Virus record (IMG/VR): IMGVR_UViG_3300005336_000053
Span: 1 to 24,072 of that record
DNA: 24,072 bases
Strand: one strand, 5' to 3'
Origin: a virus
Positions 4,944-24,072 of this stretch are shown here, one piece after another (within the stretch, counting starts at the first letter, position 1; every line of letters starts with the position of its first letter). The notes beneath the pieces were generated by a model, which worked only from the letters and a program-made list of their open reading frames with translations, ran no database searches and was not told the DNA's origin. The position numbers and the translations under genes were made by a program.

Positions 4944-7900
4944 CTAATTCGCAACGGAATTGCGTAGTGTCCTGATGTATGCGGTGCGGAACGGAGTAGC
5001 CAAGACACGGGTTTGACCCTTGCTCGGGATAACATTAGGCGGAGCATTGAATTTAATGGTAGAGACTGGGTTAGCTCGGGCTGCGGCGCTGAACTTCGGT
5101 AGAGCCTTCGTAGTAGCATTTGAGGTCAGGCTGCTAACCAGACTTGTCAGACCTTGATTGACTGTACCGGGAGCCTGTGCGTCTGCAATGCCAGCGTAGC
5201 GTCCCTTAGCTGTTCCACCACCACTACCACTACCGCCAGAGCTGGCAGGACCACCCGTAGGTGTACCGTAGCCATAGGCAGTTCGGAACTTCTTGGAGAA
5301 CTTCAGAGAGCTTGTCAGACCGGCTTGGTAGAGTTGATTGTCAAGCTGGATGGCTGCGTCCAGATCGGGTTTCTTAACACTACCGTTAGCCAGAAGTGTC
5401 TTCAAGTCGTTACTACCGCCTTCTTGGAAGATGTCAGTTACGTTACCCGAGTAATTTAGCTTCGTAGCGGCCGTCTGAAGGGCTTTAGCCTTATTTCTGA
5501 GGTCTATGGCACCATAAGCGTCTTTGCCCGTAGAATGGTTGTTTATGTCCTTCTCGTAGTTAGCGTATAATTGTGCCAGTCTATTTGAGGGTACAAAATC
5601 GGGTAATCCCGGCATTTTCTGAGCATTCAATTTAGCGGCTATATCCTTAGCATTCTGGTCGGCTGGTTGGTCAAGATAAGCCTTTTGGTCCTTAGCGTCC
5701 ATACTGTTCCAGTGTTGGAAGAACTGAGTAGCTTCGGGGGTTGTAACACCCTTCGGTACGGCGTAGTTATTGCCGTGAGCAACGCTATCGGCTGTTTTCT
5801 GGACGTTCTTGATGTGATCCATCGTAGCCTGTGAGATAGTACCGTTCTTAACTTGTTCCTGTAGCTGGGCGTCAGTTAGCTTCATCTGAGATTGGAGGGT
5901 TGGGTCAAGACCTCGGATGTAGGCTTCCTTCACAGCGCTAACTCGCTTGGTTTCAAGCATGTTCTGTTTCTGGGCAGCGGTAGCGCCGTTCGGGAACTGT
6001 ACAACGACAGGTTTGCCGTTCTTGTCAAGGACTACATGACCGCTATAGTCAGTAACCATGTTCGGAGCGATAGGACCGTTGTAGGTAGGTTGGCCTTGAG
6101 CGTTTGGCTTGCCTTGATCTTTAGTGGGAACGGAGCCATAGGTCTGCGCCGAGATACCAAGAATGTCAGGAGCTTCCATGGCGACAGCTCGGGCGTCATT
6201 ACCCGGACTCTTCGTACTACCCATGTCATTAGCGATCTGGTAGAGACCAGACAACGGCAATGGCACGACTAGGTTAGCCAGAGTAGTAAGCGGGTTCACA
6301 GGATTACCACCCCTGTCTTTGCCTCTAAGGAGCTGAGAAGCGGCCGACAGGAGCGGGTTTTCCTTATTCTGTATCATGTCAGAGATAACACTTAGACGGG
6401 TTGAACCGCCGAACTTACTACCAAGTGGTGTAGTAACACCGGTTTGGGAGTTAGTGGTTTCTCCGCTGATTTCACGGGAAGCGGCAACAATGTTTTGCTG
6501 TAATCCGCCGAATATGTCATAACGAGTATTACCGACTTTAATCTTTAAGAAGTCAGCACTTGTAGGATTGGTATCAACGTGAGCACCGGCCAGCGTAGCC
6601 ATACCGAGGATAGTACTGGCTAGAGCAGCAAAGCTACCGACGTTCTGGAGGGCATATTTACGGGCGACAGGTGGCAGTTTGGCGTAGAAGACAGGGTTTA
6701 ACATGTCTAGGCGAGATTTCCACAGACGAGGCGAGAACAGGGCGGTTGACAGAGTTTGAGAATGTTGTTCTAAGTATTGTCCCAAGTCACCACGACCGCT
6801 GAAAGTGTTGATGTACTTAGCAATACCTTTCAGGTCTTCCGGAGTCAAGTCAAGACCAGCATTCTTAGCGTCAGAGGTAATACTGTCATATACACTAGAT
6901 CGGAATTGAGTCAGGAAGCCGGTGTAAGCTCGGTCAGAAGCAGCTACAATACGACCAGCGCCCGGTATCTTCTCAGCCAAGTTACTAACGAACTGTTCCT
7001 CAGATTTGTCAAGGGCTTCAGTTCCGGTAACAGCCAGCCCAGCGTCAAGCTTCTCCTGATAATTAGGAGCTGCGGCAATCTTAGCCATTCCTTCTTTGAA
7101 GTTATTCTCGTTAGCGAAGTATTTAAGCTGGTCTTGGAATGCACTTCCAGCTTCTTTCGGGAAACGTGAAGCCAGTACCCCACCTTGACGGAGGGTTGCA
7201 GATAAGTCACCAGAGGCCATAACAGACTTGGGTAGACCGGCAACTTGGCCCACCTTTTCAGCCAGAGAGCTACCCTTGAATTGGCCTTCATCTGCGGCTG
7301 TTTGGACGGCATTACCGAACTCATCACCGAAGGCTTTGCGGAGCGAACTGATGTCAGATGGAGTCGGACCTTCACCGGTAGTTAGTTTCATAAGGGCGGT
7401 CTGGGCATTAACCTTTTCAAATGGCCGCATTTCAGCGTTAGTCTGGATAGCGTTATGGAGTGCGTCAATCTGTTCGGGGCTCATCTGAATACCATAACCA
7501 GAAGTAGTGTAATCACCCTTCAGGGCACCTAGTTTGGCGTAAACGCCAGCCTGTCCACCACCGGCCGCTTCGTACGCAGCGTCCGCCTGTGCGGATCGAG
7601 CAGCCTTCTCCGCAGCCCGAGCGGTGGCAGATTTATTGTATTCACGGGTTGCACCCGTCAGGCTGTCAATTACTTGTTGTTTGGCGTCAGTAACGGCTTG
7701 CTCGTCTGGAGCAGCACTAGCAGCCGTAACCTGAGCGGCAGGAGTGGCTTCTTGGACAGCGGCAGTTGTAGGAGCAGCCGCAGCGTCAGCGGTGCCAGCT
7801 TCTATAGTAGGAGCATTAGTCTCGCCCATAGCTTTCAGGGCAGCTAGACGGTGCTTACCATCTTCTACTATAGTGTTGCCATTCTCATCTTTTGATGTGA

Positions 7901-17910: not shown

Positions 17911-18591
17911 TTATTCGTAACGAACATTGATTAAATGATTGTGGACGCTGACGTCTTTTACCCTGTCGGGGCCGATTTCTTTGTAGATAGATGTTGCTTT
18001 TCTGACATGCCCGTACTTGTTTTCACGTGAATAATCTTCCTTTTCAGTCGTGTAAAGCCGAATATGGCACTTGTTTTTCTCATCGTCTGCGCCGTAAACC
18101 GGGCTCTCAAAAGCTGGCGTAGATACGAGTACTGAGCCGCCGGGAGCCAGAACGTCATCAATCAGTCTAAGAACTTCTTGGACATCCTTAACATGTTCAA
18201 TAACCTCAAACAGTGTGACGACATCAAAACTATGGGGTTCAAAACCACGTATCTGTTCTTCTATAGGTCCCTGATAGAAATGGGCGTTTAGTTTGGCTTG
18301 TTCCGCCCGTTCCTTCGCAATTTTAATGCCATCAACCGTGAGATCAATGCCGCTAACGGGTATATGTAGGTGTCTCGCAACAGTAAGTGCAAACGAACCA
18401 TCCAGACAACCAAGGTCCAGTAGGTTCTTTGGCTGAAGCTCTTCAACTTGGTCAAAGGCCCAGCCGAAGCGGGGAATAAATTCGTGAATATCAAAAGCAT
18501 GTTTTTCGTTAATCGGCTCAAATTTGTGGTGCTCATAGAAGTCCTCGTATTGCTCTAGGCTAAAGTCTTGTTCAGATTTACTTCCTACCAT
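17911..18591 (-). CDS. Class I SAM-dependent methyltransferase
   Basis: A protein of 226 residues. Motif I LLDLGCLDGSFAL (about 57-69), post-I GIDLTVDG, motif near FDVVTLFEVIEH, and LAPGGSVLVSTP match the class I Rossmann methyltransferase fold of the UbiE/Methyltransf_11 type. The substrate is unknown. Because it ends the glycosyltransferase-GroEL block, modification of a sugar or of a virion or surface glycan is likely (inference). The ribosome site AAGGA lies 6 bases before the ATG at 18591. Confidence 0.88.
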   Translation of the reverse strand: MVGSKSEQDFSLEQYEDFYEHHKFEPINEKHAFDIHEFIPRFGWAFDQVEELQPKNLLDLGCLDGSFALTVARHLHIPVSGIDLTVDGIKIAKERAEQAKLNAHFYQGPIEEQIRGFEPHSFDVVTLFEVIEHVKDVQEVLRLIDDVLAPGGSVLVSTPAFESPVYGADDEKNKCHIRLYTTEKEDYSRENKYGHVRKATSIYKEIGPDRVKDVSVHNHLINVRYE

Positions 18592-18668
18592 GGTTATCCT
18601 TCTTGTAAAAATGCTCGGCGATGGATAGTGTCTTACCGCCTATCTTGTTGCCGAAAGCATATCCCTTC

Positions 18669-19268
18669 TTAGTGAACCTTCTGTCTTTTTGGCTTAGTCG
18701 TCTTCGGAGCGAGGAGCGATTGAATGGTATTGTCCCATTCTTGGGCGACGTCTCCCCAGTCGCAGCTAGGTACTGCCGTGCCAGTTTTGCCCTCTCGGAG
18801 AGCGTCAATAACTTTTTGAATGAATTGTTCTTGTTTGTACTCATCGGTATATATCTTCTGTGTCCTTATTTTATCGCCGCTTTTTACTGTTTCTTTAAGT
18901 GCACCAACCGTAGTAACCACCGGGTAACAGCCAGCTTCTTGAGCCTTGAGTGCTGTAATACAGTGGATTTCAGGGAATTCAGTCGGGTAAGCCCATACTT
19001 GGATTTTTGACATTGCCTTCGCCAGTTCTTCATGTGAAACCCGGCCATGAACAGTAACGCCTTGGTCTGCCAGTTCAGCGAACCGACGCTCCATTCTAAA
19101 ATAGAAATCGTCTTCACCCTCCAAGCCAACCCACGACTCCCAACCATAATAGACATCGAGAGTTGCGTCGGGGACTGCCTCACGAATAACGGGCCACATC
19201 TGGAGTAGACACTCAAGTCCCCTGTAGTATGCCGAAAAATATCCAACACTATTCTTCCTCTTTTTCAC
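18669..19268 (-). CDS. C-terminal GT-B half of a GT4 glycosyltransferase
   Basis: A protein of 199 residues from a GTG at 19268. It contains YRGLECLLQMWPVIREAVPD, LDVYYGWESW and HGRVSHEELAKAM. It also carries the nucleotide-sugar segment VWAYPTEFPEIHCITALKAQ, which resembles the E-x7-E region of GT4 enzymes. This is the donor-binding Rossmann half only; the acceptor half is absent. The 558-residue protein at 21048-22724 ends exactly where this half should begin. It overlaps the end of GroEL by 20 bases. It may work as a separate subunit with that protein, or be a relic. Confidence 0.75.
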   Translation of the reverse strand: MKKRKNSVGYFSAYYRGLECLLQMWPVIREAVPDATLDVYYGWESWVGLEGEDDFYFRMERRFAELADQGVTVHGRVSHEELAKAMSKIQVWAYPTEFPEIHCITALKAQEAGCYPVVTTVGALKETVKSGDKIRTQKIYTDEYKQEQFIQKVIDALREGKTGTAVPSCDWGDVAQEWDNTIQSLLAPKTTKPKRQKVH

Positions 19269-20817
19269 TTTTATCTTCCTCTCTAGTTATGATTACGCCA
19301 GTAGTCAAGGCAGACGCCGCCACAGATACAGCGTTGGTGATAGTCTGCTTAATCACCAAGACGGGGTCAATTATTCCATGTTCTTTGAGATTGATAGGTT
19401 TTTCAGGATCGCCCATAATGTCGTAGCCGGTGCCAAACTCGTGAGCTTCTAGTTGCTCGAGCTGTTTTCCGTACCGTAGACCGGCATTTGTCATCAGGAC
19501 CTTAAATGGTGCCTCTAATGCTTCTTTAAGGAGCTGTGCGCCGTCTGTGTCGCTCACAAGCTCTCTTGCGAGGCGTATGTATGTCATACCACCGCCCGGG
19601 ACAATTCCTTCCTTCAGAGCGGCTTCTGTAGCTGCTACTGCGTCATCAATGAGATACTTGCGTTCTTCGGCCTCCATTTCGGTGTTACCACCTACTCTGA
19701 TCTGACCGACACGTGCCCGGAGCTGGGCGATACGCTTCTCAATCTTACTCTTATCAAATTCGCCTTTTGTGTTCTTAACTTTGGCCTGTAGACCCTTGAT
19801 GTAGTCGCTAACGTCTTGACCGCCAGTAATGACAGTCTCAGCCTGAGTAGCCACCAGCTCAGCACAAGTACCTAGATCGGGCGGTTTTAGATCGGAAATT
19901 TTCTTAGGGAACTTCGCACCTACTGGCTCTGTACCGACAAAGGTTGCAATGTCACGTAAGCGTTCCATGCGCTGTTCACCGAAGCCCGGAGACTTAATCC
20001 CGATGACATCAAACTCACCAGCCCGGAGCATGGCCCAGTCTAGTAAGTCATTCTTGAAGTCATCAGCAATGATTACAATACCATCCCGACCTTGGTTAAA
20101 TAGGTCTTGGCATAGTCCCACCACATCCTTAAACCCGACTGTCTGGTGGGCAACTAGAATGGGAGGATTAGCGGCAGTAGTGCTCTGGGTGCGCTGATCC
20201 AGTATCATGGTCGGACTGAGGAGACCGGTATCAAAAGAATAACCCTCCACAATCTCGTACTCAATAACTGGCTTCTGGCCGAGTTCTACAACCACCATAG
20301 CGTCTTTACCGAGCTTATGGTACATCTGTCCAACCTCTTTACCGATGGTCGGATTTTCACTAGCGATGGTCGCAACCTCAATGGTTGACTTTTCGGTAGT
20401 AATAGGTTCTGCTAACTTAGGAAGTGCTGCAAGGGCTTCTTCCGCTGCGGCGTCTAATTCACGCCGGAGAACCATAGCATTCTTGCCCGTCTGGATTTTA
20501 GCCAGACCACCATCTATCAGGTGATAGGCGAGAATAGTAGAGCTGGTCGTACCGTCACCTACGTTGTCATTAGTCTTGCTGGAGCTGGCCTTAATCATCT
20601 CAATACCGACCCTAGCGCCCGGTGAACAGTCTTTGACATCCTCAATGGATTTGGCGACAGTTACACCGTCATGGGTTACAACAGGTTCGCCATATGCCTC
20701 AATGACAGCATTTTGGCCTTTCGGACCAAGGGTAGTGGACACGGCTTCATAGAGAAGCTTGGCACCCTCAAGGAGCTGTTCTTTGGCCTTATCGCCGGTT
20801 ATGATCTGTTTCTTCAC
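19249..20817 (-). CDS. groL: GroEL-type group I chaperonin
   Basis: A protein of 522 residues from the GTG at 20817 (KKQIITGDKAKEQLLEGAKL). This start is preferred because GGAG lies 6 bases upstream and because it aligns with normal GroEL N-termini. The open frame extends further to 20973, but that adds 52 residues unlike GroEL. ATPase motifs are intact: TLGPKGQNAVIEAYG, DGVTVAKSIED, VGDGTTSSTIL and DDAVAATEAALKEGIVPGGG. The C-terminus is acidic (EEDKSEKEEE) instead of a GGM-rich tail. No GroES is visible. In phages, chaperonins assist folding of capsid or other virion proteins. The gene overlaps the 35-residue ORF by four bases (GTGA). Confidence 0.95.
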   Translation of the reverse strand: MKKQIITGDKAKEQLLEGAKLLYEAVSTTLGPKGQNAVIEAYGEPVVTHDGVTVAKSIEDVKDCSPGARVGIEMIKASSSKTNDNVGDGTTSSTILAYHLIDGGLAKIQTGKNAMVLRRELDAAAEEALAALPKLAEPITTEKSTIEVATIASENPTIGKEVGQMYHKLGKDAMVVVELGQKPVIEYEIVEGYSFDTGLLSPTMILDQRTQSTTAANPPILVAHQTVGFKDVVGLCQDLFNQGRDGIVIIADDFKNDLLDWAMLRAGEFDVIGIKSPGFGEQRMERLRDIATFVGTEPVGAKFPKKISDLKPPDLGTCAELVATQAETVITGGQDVSDYIKGLQAKVKNTKGEFDKSKIEKRIAQLRARVGQIRVGGNTEMEAEERKYLIDDAVAATEAALKEGIVPGGGMTYIRLARELVSDTDGAQLLKEALEAPFKVLMTNAGLRYGKQLEQLEAHEFGTGYDIMGDPEKPINLKEHGIIDPVLVIKQTITNAVSVAASALTTGVIITREEDKSEKEEE

Positions 20818-20921
20818 GCCTCGCTCCACTCTCTCAGGCTTGGGTTCCAGATGTATAGTAGACCGTCTGAGCCGAGGCCGTATAGTGCGTTGTTGTAAGG
20901 TGTAATTTGGATAATAGTCAT
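20814..20921 (-). CDS. 35-residue single beta-blade-like peptide
   Basis: MTIIQITPYNNALYGLGSDG followed by LLYIWNPSLREWSEA. The LYGLGSDGLLYIW...W pattern looks like one blade of a beta-propeller or tectonin-like repeat. AAGGAG lies 6 bases before the ATG at 20921. The ATG overlaps the previous stop (ATGA), and its own stop overlaps the GroEL start (GTGA). Context, ribosome site and overlaps argue for a real gene that couples translation to GroEL. Its function is unknown; assembly of several copies, or a pure coupling role, are both possible. Confidence 0.7.
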   Translation of the reverse strand: MTIIQITPYNNALYGLGSDGLLYIWNPSLREWSEA

Positions 20922-21058
20922 TCTTTCTCCTTCTTAAATCCGATCTCGCCGTCGCCCCCCCCCACATAGTCAAGGAGGAGATTGGCTAAGGTTTCTATCT
21001 GTTTATCGCCCATGTCAGCAATAATCTCAAGTTTTTCGCAGAGTTGCTTAGTCGTCAT
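20918..21058 (-). CDS. 46-residue small protein with G9 tract
   Basis: Short helical, acidic protein beginning MTTKQLCEKLEIIADMGDKQ and ending DGEIGFKKEKE. AAGGAG precedes the ATG at 21058. This ATG lies within the last codons of the glycosyltransferase, giving an 11-base overlap. A nine-base homopolymer in the coding region (20955-20963) encodes the GGG run. A longer frame to 21172 exists but is a shadow of the glycosyltransferase. It is too small for GroES and shows no GroES features. Function unknown; it may be part of the GroEL cassette. Confidence 0.6.
   Translation of the reverse strand: MTTKQLCEKLEIIADMGDKQIETLANLLLDYVGGGDGEIGFKKEKE
20955..20963. repeat. Nine-base C/G homopolymer inside a CDS
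   Basis: C9 on the plus strand, G9 on the coding strand, inside the 46-residue gene. Such tracts slip during replication and are also prone to sequencing error. An indel here would change the 46-residue product's C-terminus and could join it to a neighbouring frame. Confidence 0.85.
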
Positions 21059-22724
21059 GGAACTGCTCCTTCTTAATGCCGTTGCCGATGACCTTAGACC
21101 GAACTGGGCCATAAAGACCTTTGTGGAATTCGCTCTTGAACATGTAAGTAACGTCTGGGTAATCCTTGACAACTTCTTCTGGAATGATGTCGTGGATGTC
21201 GGCTAATTTGACCTTGGCTGTGATCGGCTCGAGGTACTGAGGTGCCCTCCATGCAACAAAGATGTTGAACTTATCACGCTTATCAATCTCTTTCCATGGG
21301 AGATATTTAACATGGTATTCTTTCGGCTCAACAGTCGTGTCGGAAGTGGGTTCGTTGACTTCGCCGTAGACGGTTACATCATAACCAAGCTTAGACAATT
21401 CACGTGAAAGGTAGACAACCGCTTCTTCCGAACCGCCCATTCCTTTATCCATGGTTTGCGGGCCCCACTCTTCAAATCCTTCGCCGCAGAAAATAACAAT
21501 GGAGTTATCGGGCCAAGTTTTAGGCTTGTGAGTTGCAAAACGGAGTGCCTGAATGCGGGGATCATACTGTATATCTCTACACAGGCTTTCCCACAGATAG
21601 TGGTCGTTATGGAAATACTTCCTGATTTTTGGTAACAGATTAACGAAGGTCTCGGCGTCCGCTTCTTCAATGAAGCCATCCATAAGTTCTTTGGCGTCAC
21701 TGTCGTTCGGAATTTTGCGGAGCCAAGCGAGAGCCTTGTTGTAGTTACCGAGCCGGAAATCTGCCTGAGCAGCTATCAATATGGCTCTGTCTCTGGCGCT
21801 AGGGTCCCAGACCGAGAGGGTCTTAGGATCGGGCTTAGTCAGTGAGGTACGTACCCATTCTAGGGCTTCGGCGAAGTTGTTCTGGTTATACTCATACTGA
21901 GCCAGCAACCAGTATGCCATTGGGTAGTTTGGCTTTAGGCACATTGCTTTCGTGGCATATTCCAGCGCAATATCAGCTTGTTTTAGGTGATAGGCACCTT
22001 CACTAATAAGCGATAGAGCCCGGTAAATATCCTCCATGGAACCACCGACTTTTAGGTAGTCTCGTAAGACAAGCATACTCTTCTCATATTCCCCTTTACT
22101 GAATAGAGAGGCTCCAAAGTAGTAGGCGTAGCGAGGATCGTCTGTTTCGGTGTATGCCTTTTCTAAGATTTTGTGGTTGCGCTCAACTGATGACTCAACG
22201 TGGTCCATGTGGTGAACAACTTCCGGATTATCCATAATATGACTCTTGTAGTTTGTGGTGGGCCAGATCGGAGTCTCATGTACCCAACCTTTCCACGTGA
22301 AACCTGACGCCATCCGCAAAAGCCTCTCTCGGAACTGCTTAGTAACACATACGCCGTTCTCGTCCTGAGCATAGTTGTATGGTAGGAACAGGGCGTCTAT
22401 CTTGTTATCTACGGTAATTTGCAGTAATTCGGGTATGGTGTTGAAGTCAAATGTATCGTCGGCGTCTAGCCAGAAGGCATAGTCTGAATGGCACATTGCA
22501 AAGTTGGCGTTCCGGGCGTCATCAAACTTGTCATTCCATTCACGCCATTTCACGTGAAACTCAGGCACACCTTCACCGAGTTTCCGAAGCTTATTAGCCG
22601 TGGGTTTGTCTGAAACGGTTAGGTTGATTTCATTGAAACAACTAGCCTGAACAGCGTGGGCTACTAGATTAGCAACTTGGTCATATTCGTCTTTTACTAT
22701 CAGTTGTAGGCTAATTGTGGGCAT
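21048..22724 (-). CDS. GT2-TPR glycosyltransferase with GT4 N-terminal half
   Basis: A protein of 558 residues. Residues 1-165: GT2 (GT-A) domain with IVKDEYDQV and the metal/nucleotide motif LDADD (about 86-90), plus FTWKGWVHETPIW. About 170-350: TPR-like repeats (YYFGASLFSKGEYEKSMLVL; LAQYEYNQNNFAEALEWVRT). About 406-558: GT4 N-terminal Rossmann fold with MGGSEEAVVYLSRELSKLGY and ending KVIGNGIKKEQFHDD. The chain stops in the hinge between the two GT-B lobes. It probably transfers sugars onto a virion or host surface component (inference). Its ATG shares one base with the DUF5659 stop. Confidence 0.85.
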   Translation of the reverse strand: MPTISLQLIVKDEYDQVANLVAHAVQASCFNEINLTVSDKPTANKLRKLGEGVPEFHVKWREWNDKFDDARNANFAMCHSDYAFWLDADDTFDFNTIPELLQITVDNKIDALFLPYNYAQDENGVCVTKQFRERLLRMASGFTWKGWVHETPIWPTTNYKSHIMDNPEVVHHMDHVESSVERNHKILEKAYTETDDPRYAYYFGASLFSKGEYEKSMLVLRDYLKVGGSMEDIYRALSLISEGAYHLKQADIALEYATKAMCLKPNYPMAYWLLAQYEYNQNNFAEALEWVRTSLTKPDPKTLSVWDPSARDRAILIAAQADFRLGNYNKALAWLRKIPNDSDAKELMDGFIEEADAETFVNLLPKIRKYFHNDHYLWESLCRDIQYDPRIQALRFATHKPKTWPDNSIVIFCGEGFEEWGPQTMDKGMGGSEEAVVYLSRELSKLGYDVTVYGEVNEPTSDTTVEPKEYHVKYLPWKEIDKRDKFNIFVAWRAPQYLEPITAKVKLADIHDIIPEEVVKDYPDVTYMFKSEFHKGLYGPVRSKVIGNGIKKEQFHDD

Positions 22725-23011
22725 TAGTTCTCTCTTTTCTTACGTGCTTCGTTGACAAATCGGTTGACTATTTTCAAGGAACGGTGGTACTTTTTGAAGT
22801 CGCCAGTGGCCTTTCCGAGCCTCCATGCAACTTCGCATTCTGCGACATCGTCGTCAAAAATGAAGATCAATACTTCTCTTTTATAGTCGTTGGGGTCTTG
22901 TTTAGAACCTACTATTTTATGTCCGCTATAGTGCAGATATGCCGCAAACGGTGTATCGCTGGTGCGGTAGGGTTCAAGCTCAGTTAAGGGCTCGTCCGGT
23001 GTCGGGATCAT
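22724..23011 (-). CDS. DUF5659-like small protein
   Basis: A protein of 95 residues from the ATG at 23011. PFAAYLHYSGHKIVGSKQD, then EVLIFIFDDDVAECEVAWRL and FKKYHRSLKIVNRFV, match the layout I recall for DUF5659 domains (short alpha/beta protein common in phages). Function is not known. It overlaps the terminase stop by 32 bases and shares one base with the glycosyltransferase start. A GTG at 23032 would add seven residues; the ATG is preferred because it begins the conserved-looking part. Confidence 0.65.
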   Translation of the reverse strand: MIPTPDEPLTELEPYRTSDTPFAAYLHYSGHKIVGSKQDPNDYKREVLIFIFDDDVAECEVAWRLGKATGDFKKYHRSLKIVNRFVNEARKKREN

Positions 23012-24072
23012 AATATCTCTTTCTTTTCTCACGCTTAATCGGGTTGGCTCGGTCCATGGCTAGGTACCGAATAGCGTCCATGGCGTGATTATTTTTATCT
23101 TCTGGTACGTTGGTGATTTCTCCGAACTGATCTCTGATCCATGAATAACTCTCAAATTCCTTGATTGTATTCTTACAAGAAGCTCGGATATACAGTTTCG
23201 GCTTACCGGTGTCTTGCCTGATAGCAAGCAGCGCCTTGACTTCTTTTATGCCATTAAAAACAGAGTCGGCACCCTTTTTGGAGGCAGTAATACGGAACCG
23301 TCTGGCACGGAGCGACTCTAACTCAAATCTAGCAGCGCCGTCGCCAAGTATTCGGGAGAAGTGGTCATCGCCCATCTTATCTCGCATGACGTATACAAGC
23401 TGGTCAAGGTGCAAATCGGACTGATAAATCTCGTCATATATCCACCAGTTGCCTTCATAATCAATTTTTACGAACCCTCCGGCGGTCGGATCAGTCATAC
23501 CGAAGTCAAGCGTCAGATTGTTCGTACCTTTGGTGGGCAGTCGCTCGTCAAACTCCTTATTAGGCAATACATGGACATTTCTGTCAAAATCACCATAGAC
23601 TAGCTGGGTCGGGTTAGAAAACTCAGCCATCCACTCCTGATTAAACTGGTCGAGTTTGCCCTCTTTTTCGTACTCACGCTTCGTTTCAGCCCATTCCGCT
23701 TGCGGGAAATAAGGGTTATCTTGAGCTGTGGCGTGGGAGAAGTAGTACATCTCGGGGTCGCCTTGAGCGGTTTGACAAAGGTCATAAAAGTAGTTATAAA
23801 CACCGTTTGGCGTGGAAATGAAGATTGCCCAGCCATTCTTGTCAGCTAGTGCCGGGCGGATAATAGTGTCATATAGGTATTTACCGTCACTGATGAAGGC
23901 GTACTCGTCCATAACTGCGCCAGCTATACCCGTTCCACGGAGTGAGTCTGGATTGTCGGCACCCTTCAGTTCAATCCGGGTGGGCGGTAGGTCTGGATCG
24001 TGGTTGACTGTGATCGGACCATTCTGAGTCTCAAGAGTAACACCGGACAGATGGTCAAAAGTGATTGATAAT
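22980..24072 (-). CDS. Terminase large subunit, N-terminus beyond window
   Basis: Packaging motor protein, partial. The frame stays open to the window edge at 24072. The first readable residues include VTLETQNGPITVNHDPDLPP. Walker B-like GAVMDEYAFI, coupling motif FISTPNGVYN, and nuclease features (LTLDFGMTDPTAGG, GDGAARFE, NHAMDAIRYLAMD) are visible. The Walker A motif must lie outside. It uses ATP to move DNA into the capsid and cuts it. It overlaps the DUF5659-like gene. Confidence 0.93.
   Translation of the reverse strand, partial: LSITFDHLSGVTLETQNGPITVNHDPDLPPTRIELKGADNPDSLRGTGIAGAVMDEYAFISDGKYLYDTIIRPALADKNGWAIFISTPNGVYNYFYDLCQTAQGDPEMYYFSHATAQDNPYFPQAEWAETKREYEKEGKLDQFNQEWMAEFSNPTQLVYGDFDRNVHVLPNKEFDERLPTKGTNNLTLDFGMTDPTAGGFVKIDYEGNWWIYDEIYQSDLHLDQLVYVMRDKMGDDHFSRILGDGAARFELESLRARRFRITASKKGADSVFNGIKEVKALLAIRQDTGKPKLYIRASCKNTIKEFESYSWIRDQFGEITNVPEDKNNHAMDAIRYLAMDRANPIKREKRKRYYDPDTGRALN

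Follow-up and report, generated by a model that had tools for sequence, protein, structure and literature searches.

A phage glycosyltransferase gene divided between its two GT-B lobes, with a chaperonin gene between the halves

Several phage enzymes are encoded by genes in pieces, among which Aeh1 NrdA (with the homing endonuclease mobE), the T4 topoisomerase 39/60 (with mobA) and gene 43 of Aeromonas phage 25; the split products of Aeh1 NrdA and of the phage 25 DNA polymerase are active (PMC2988022). Among glycosyltransferases, Alg13/Alg14 and EpsE/EpsF are split MurG-like enzymes of the GT-B fold (PMC4973528), and GT-B lobes that are expressed separately can come together by themselves as active enzymes (PMC10937113). 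Chaperonins encoded by phages are also known, as in phages EL (gp146) and AR9 (PMC7185714, PMC9598537). The present analysis concerns the virus record IMGVR_UViG_3300005336_000053, of which the stretch from position 1 to 24,072 (24,072 nucleotides, hereafter the window) was considered as a whole. In this window, a GroEL gene and two tiny open reading frames (ORFs) lie between the two halves of a glycosyltransferase gene. As judged from sequence, this is quite probably a gene-in-pieces enzyme whose two Rossmann lobes would be made as two assembling chains, with a chaperonin cassette at the hinge.

As in the Aeh1 NrdA group, a phage enzyme gene is broken by an inserted gene and both halves are retained. 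The insert, however, consists of a chaperonin and tiny ORFs instead of an endonuclease, and the broken gene is that of a glycosyltransferase, the same hinge of which was broken several times. Only one distant member of the family (L133), with an HNH endonuclease at the hinge, comes closer to the homing-endonuclease splits. As in Alg13/Alg14 and EpsE/EpsF, the break lies between the two GT-B Rossmann lobes, each with its own chain, but Pfam gives GT4 families here, unlike the MurG-like type of the former. Moreover, Alg13/Alg14 and EpsE/EpsF have neither a GT2-tetratricopeptide repeat (TPR) part nor a gene wedged between the subunits, and their splits and fusions are spread across deep lineages, whereas those described below recur among related phages. 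The GT2 and TPR part resembles the SunS/ThuS glycocin S-glycosyltransferases, and the TPR plus GT-B layout resembles OGT; SunS lacks a GT-B module and OGT a GT2 module, and neither is split. The chaperonin is group I-like and phage-encoded, as are those of EL (gp146) and AR9, but in a phage of ca. 42 kb, not a jumbo phage. In gene history the system thus resembles Aeh1 nrdA and in protein architecture Alg13/Alg14, the wedge being a chaperonin. Literature searches on split phage glycosyltransferases gave no paper on such a system, as judged by title and abstract.

The divided gene, its halves and its insert

The gene order in the window is large terminase, 102-residue ORF, 558-residue glycosyltransferase (N half), two tiny ORFs, GroEL, 199-residue glycosyltransferase (C half), S-adenosylmethionine (SAM) methyltransferase and portal. 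All the ORFs of the split locus are on the minus strand, and the features are as follows:

22724..23032, minus strand: upstream flank, a 102-residue ORF adjoining the large terminase gene, kept beside split and intact versions
21048..22724, minus strand: N half of the split enzyme, 558 residues, with GT2 (GT-A), TPR repeats and the GT4/GT-B N-lobe; C-terminus NGIKKEQFHDD
21051..21512, minus strand: GT4 N-lobe part of the N half, approximately residues 405-558 (GMGGSEEAVVYLSRELSKLGYDVTVYGE...), from the Glyco_transf_4 match at 429-498 and alignments
21066..21071, minus strand: AAGGAG, Shine-Dalgarno-like, within the hinge codons (KKEQF), with the ATG of the next gene at 21058; from the sequence and the anti-Shine-Dalgarno energy
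20918..21058, minus strand: tiny ORF 1, 46 residues, with similar-looking ORFs in L003, L006 and L008
20814..20921, minus strand: tiny ORF 2, 35 residues, IIQI..LYGL.SDGLLYIW, from the ORF list and the comparison with relatives
19249..20817, minus strand: GroEL, group I chaperonin, 522 residues, GTG start at 20817, from Pfam, PHROG and motifs
19275..19281, minus strand: GAGGAAG, a ribosome-binding-like site for the C half within the last codons of GroEL, from the sequence
18669..19268, minus strand: C half, 199 residues, complete GT4/GT-B C-lobe (donor side) with its own GTG start, from Pfam, alignment and predicted fold
17911..18591, minus strand: downstream flank, SAM methyltransferase, kept beside split and intact versions

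A first-pass annotation, made from the sequence alone, had placed two tiny ORFs and a full GroEL between the halves, with junction overlaps of 11, 4, 4 and 20 bases from the N half through tiny ORFs 1 and 2 and GroEL to the C half. All these positions and overlaps were confirmed. As for GroEL, an ORF of 574 residues was discarded since it starts too early.

The N half matches Glycos_transf_2 (4e-9), TPRs and Glyco_transf_4 (8e-4) in Pfam. The last match (PF13439) falls under the curated Pfam cut-off, and the N-lobe aligns end to end with intact homologues. The 558-residue protein had been read as a GT-B lobe ending at the hinge: it does end there, but the lobe is not alone, since a separate domain of GT2 (GT-A) type and TPRs take up the first ca. 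340 residues. The C half matches Glyco_trans_1_4 (PF13692, 1.5e-10) and Glycos_transf_1 (PF00534, 2.5e-9), both above cut-offs. Modelled alone, it is predicted to form a confident Rossmann lobe (predicted local distance difference test, pLDDT, 91.5; predicted template modelling score 0.86), whose Foldseek neighbours in PDB are GT-B enzymes, e.g. GtfA, glycogen synthase, PimA and TarM; G-protein-coupled receptor constructs carrying a glycogen synthase domain as fusion partner were also returned. A sequence comparison of the C half with PDB gave designed TIM barrels only, over the C-terminal stretch, and was judged spurious. With the family profiles of both lobes matched, the two chains are assigned by sequence to the GT4/GT-B glycosyltransferases, and the C half, proposed earlier as a second GT4 Rossmann lobe, matches exactly the lobe missing from the N half.

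The E-x7-E donor motif is common in GT4 enzymes, although not strictly universal. The donor segment announced by the first-pass annotation is present in the C half, but without the second glutamate: the motif is E-x7-K (EIHCITALK). The same E-x7-K is found in the intact relatives L028, L029 and L031, so that the lysine is a subfamily variant and not a consequence of the split, while E-x7-E is present in intact L041-L045.

In PDB comparisons, the GT2 and TPR part resembles SunS/ThuS (SunS, PDB 7msn, Foldseek E 6e-19). SunS and ThuS attach a sugar to a peptide cysteine. By analogy with the SunS-like GT2 plus TPR and the OGT-like TPR plus GT-B layouts, the acceptor is likely to be a protein, and perhaps a virion protein, since the locus sits among head genes.

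In close-relative searches of IMG/VR, this GroEL was found on eight contigs and the C half on ten. In total, 10 phages, counting the window, have the order N half, GroEL, C half at this position between terminase and portal. This count adds the Manatee Spring phage MW202497, a GenBank "complete genome", and takes the near-copies L003/L004 once. The glycosyltransferase halves of these relatives have 52-80% identity to those of the window. Since order and break recur in nine other phages, among which MW202497, the arrangement is not due to chance, and an assembly error or a contig chimera is ruled out.

Profile searches with the halves gave ca. 50 intact homologues with both parts in one frame. 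In the nearest phages without GroEL, the intact proteins have 762 (L028), 753 (L029/L030), 746 (L031/L032) and 741 residues (L033), and most of the more distant ones have 740-830. These are the homologues of about 750 residues joining both ORFs that were expected for a split gene: the 199-residue ORF corresponds to their C-lobe and not to an independent, complete family, and the 558-residue protein is not full length in homologues lacking GroEL. Concerning the locus itself, the same flanks, i.e. a homologue of the 102-residue ORF and the methyltransferase, surround an intact gene in L052/L053, L061, L062, L063 and L067 (the latter on a contig of 37.9 kb), and no GroEL (PF00118) was found in their records. 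Among the 40 records searched, PF00118 is present in 10, which are exactly the GroEL-split ones. A scan of genome contigs with the N half yielded 30 loci, of which three intact and four split GT2-TPR-GT4 members are on contigs binned as metagenome-assembled genomes (MAGs); the same scan with the C half gave nothing.

The position of the break was measured as the spacing between the NG of the N-lobe and the RG of the C-lobe, counted over the 36 intact rows with a readable motif pair. It is 21-24 residues in 35 of the 36 (mode 23). In the window, the two halves contribute 8 + 15 = 23 residues, none being lost, and the sum varies from 21 to 28 over the GroEL clade. In the predicted structure of intact L067 (pLDDT 92.9), the break falls in a coil (539-547) between the last helix of the N-lobe (535-538) and the first strand of the C-lobe (548-551). 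The modelled break site is therefore the interlobe linker between the two GT-B Rossmann lobes. A transposition scar was ruled out, as the two borders show no direct repeats.

The GroEL of the window matches Cpn60_TCP1 (PF00118, 2.9e-46) and PHROG 5725 (3.9e-107, positions 3-538 of 540). Its ATP-site motifs GDGTT, DDAV and IDP are kept, and the C-terminus is acidic in place of the GGM tail. No GroES was found in 11 phage records, several of them of 42-44 kb. Outside the clade, the nearest GroELs of the phage collection share at most ca. 34% identity with it, and around the four distant IMG/VR GroEL loci homologues of the glycosyltransferase halves are absent within 4 kb. In another Manatee Spring phage (L169, MW202566, 4660-6611), GroEL lies just upstream of the terminase gene, after an ORF annotated mhsp60, and no glycosyltransferase is annotated in the 11.6-kb stretch read.

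GroEL is the only inserted gene common to all 10 members, the tiny ORFs coming and going. The ORFs between the N half and GroEL differ (a metallopeptidase-like ORF in L005), and L007 has none, the stop codon of its N half and the start codon of its GroEL overlapping as TAATG. ORFs like tiny ORF 2 occur between the halves in L003, L009, L010 and L014 and, without GroEL, in L073/L074. Members of this family (IIQI..LYGL..DG.LY.W....W) stand at or beside the glycosyltransferase break in separate split lineages (window 20814-20921; L073 2766-3017; L039 1767-1841). No endonuclease was found in the insert of the window, and none was seen among those of the other GroEL loci.

Both halves are under purifying selection. 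Where the synonymous rate (dS) is unsaturated, the ratio of nonsynonymous to synonymous rates (dN/dS) is 0.05-0.15 for both halves, mainly in split group B (see below) and L073/L074. In the GroEL clade, the single measurable ratio is 0.09, for the C-lobe of the pair L024-L025. As dN there is 0.13-0.30 and dS is saturated for most pairs, selection in this clade rests on the low dN and the invariant motifs more than on ratios. Over the 10 phages, mean identity is 0.76 for the C half vs. 0.58 for the N half, and the donor-site residues are invariant within the clade.

All C halves have a start codon of their own. The hinge codons AAGGAGCAGTT supply a ribosome site for the next gene, whose strength, taken as anti-Shine-Dalgarno energy against background windows inside the same genes, is in about the top 2% (median). 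Only this within-gene background was used, because the windows of split genes were chosen relative to a start codon, which biases a comparison with intact genes; for L026, a wrong upstream ATG was taken. A 16-base near-repeat (88%) links the end of tiny ORF 1 (20927-20942) to the end of the N half (21066-21081) and includes the AAGGAG site. Promoter and terminator scans gave chance level only. An 88-residue ORF (18578-18844), read in another frame, shares 176 bases with the 3' end of the C half. It is kept in L008 (60% identity), and both C halves are longer-tailed there; it is possibly an overlapping gene.

Recurrence of the break in the family

Trees were built with IQ-TREE on 75 rows and on 82 rows including the MAG contigs. 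The GroEL-split clade is monophyletic in the former (100/99) and also forms one group in the latter. Its sister (L031, L033, L061, L063) and the next group (L028, L029) are intact. At least five changes between intact and split are needed on the trees, although such counts do not separate gain from loss. Approximately unbiased (AU) tests on 32 rows rejected all splits as one clade (p 4e-58), the GroEL clade with the group B and group C splits (p 7e-32), and the GroEL clade with group B (p 1e-73), which rules out a single ancient split common to all lineages. Outside the GroEL clade, the split lineages and their inserts are:

L019, L034-L038 and L040 (split group B): ORFs of 53 and 50 residues
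L039: an ORF of 43 residues
L073/L074: one tiny ORF
L075 and L079: halves overlapping, no insert; single contigs, so that a sequencing error is possible
L046: an ORF of 86 residues
L133: an HNH endonuclease and an ORF of 46 residues
L129: an ORF of 62 residues
L130 and L134: halves overlapping, no insert

The N half is a few residues shorter at its end in the group with L046, L129, L130, L133 and L134, where it stops with or shortly after NGI, NGV or NGL; this fits a separate split event. Within group B, a 418-residue N6/N4 DNA methylase stands between the halves of L034 (2031-3287) and L040 (2980-4236), together with two tiny ORFs that also occur in near relatives without the methylase. In L133, on a contig binned as Bacteroidetes, an HNH_3 match (6881-7294, 3e-10) lies exactly at the hinge, which makes this a split of the classical homing type within the same family. 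The C half of L129 (6948-8444) is fused to a further domain, GT2-like by Pfam, and that of L130 (1247-2779) has a similar length: the detached C lobe has gained a new partner domain in L129 and presumably also in L130.

Trees of each half, covering the window, L020-L027 and L049, place the window differently: with L022 for the N half (91/91) and with L020 and L021 for the C half (90/92). Recombination at the break may possibly lie behind this conflict.

Origin of the split and role of the chaperonin

The two-chain reading would start from an ancestor of one chain of ca. 750 residues, made of GT2, TPR and GT4. In the ancestor of the phage clade, the reading frame would have been broken in the loop between the GT4 Rossmann lobes, a break now filled by the GroEL gene and the tiny ORFs. 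Both halves would be made from one operon by coupled initiation and may meet as two subunits, forming the active cleft as in Alg13/Alg14. That they still work together as separate chains is probable, because sister genes are unbroken and other branches are broken at the same hinge. The first-pass annotation had opposed a cassette that invaded a glycosyltransferase gene without destroying it to a split enzyme evolved around a chaperonin. The former is the better of the two for this lineage, since the gene is unbroken in the sister clade and in the next one, and their records yielded no GroEL. Several points weigh against the two-chain reading. It requires an ancestral intact state in the clade, while two exact re-fusions also fit the tree; these must, however, restore the 23-residue spacing, and repeated re-fusion is disfavoured because that spacing is constant in intact enzymes. 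The records of the intact relatives may be fragments, so that the absence of GroEL applies to the records searched. To this are added the saturated dS for most GroEL-clade pairs, the trees of the two halves, not fully congruent within the clade, and the lysine replacing the second glutamate of E-x7-E in the subfamily, even though intact relatives share it.

Another order of events would lead to the same two-chain enzyme: a frameshift at the hinge with translational restart would have come first, and GroEL would have been inserted later into an already coupled pair. In its favour, the hinge codons AAGGAG-CAGTT form a strong ribosome site, the hinge split of L075, L079, L130 and L134 shows overlapping frames without any insert, and that of L073/L074 holds a tiny ORF only. 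Yet neither the GroEL clade nor its immediate neighbours include a known GroEL-free split member, and a possible sequencing error weakens L075 and L079. We give this order nearly an even chance. By contrast, it is very unlikely that the break is a decay, with a dead GT4, a GT2-TPR part used alone and a C half left as a relic. Gene splitting often marks decay and the N half retains a complete GT2 domain, but the C half is the better conserved one, with invariant donor-site motifs, dN/dS is low in split lineages, and the split has been maintained across a clade with only 52-80% identity among its members; where an N half alone was seen, the locus runs off its contig (L071 ends 360 bases later). 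Extremely unlikely is a joining of the halves into one full-length enzyme through an intron, an intein, programmed bypassing or removal of the GroEL cassette from the DNA. Introns and bypassing are indeed known from phages, and the halves are complementary with no linker lost. However, the window has no Rfam intron match, the spacer varies from 1,560 to 2,025 bases in the GroEL clade without fixed frame relation, the insert holds stops ahead of C halves that have their own starts, no direct repeats stand at its two borders, and no recombinase is found among the inserted ORFs.

Concerning the chaperonin, GroEL could owe its retention to folding or assembling the split enzyme, in which case the cassette would be a dedicated fold-and-join unit. 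This would agree with GroEL being the sole inserted gene in all 10 members, encoded between its two supposed clients, with an intact ATP site and no GroES found in the 11 records. Other split lineages, however, have no GroEL in the records searched while both halves are conserved, and GroEL is found at other places in many phages, e.g. just upstream of the terminase gene in MW202566; such a unit is unlikely. It is equally doubtful that the interlobe hinge is a natural break-and-dock site, whose codons act as a ribosome site and allow a split without loss of function, where cargo lands (chaperonin, methylase, endonuclease) and where the captured chaperonin became an assembly factor in one clade. 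Most likely, GroEL acts on phage proteins at large and profits from being expressed in the head and packaging operon, although it may also play a special part in the assembly of the split enzyme. The existence of split lineages without GroEL in the records searched suggests that it is dispensable for split lineages in general. As breaks at this hinge arose repeatedly and most of them lack GroEL, the chaperonin is one cargo among others and does not explain splitting in general.

As a whole, one gene is found in a natural series, i.e. intact, split without insert and split with cargo, so that the steps from one enzyme to two subunits are directly comparable. The series suggests that division of a GT4 enzyme at its interlobe hinge is feasible, as was engineered with other GT-B enzymes, and that phage genes in pieces are not confined to homing endonuclease targets. 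Finally, the constant presence of GroEL between the halves raises the question of whether an inserted chaperonin helps the very enzyme that it divides.

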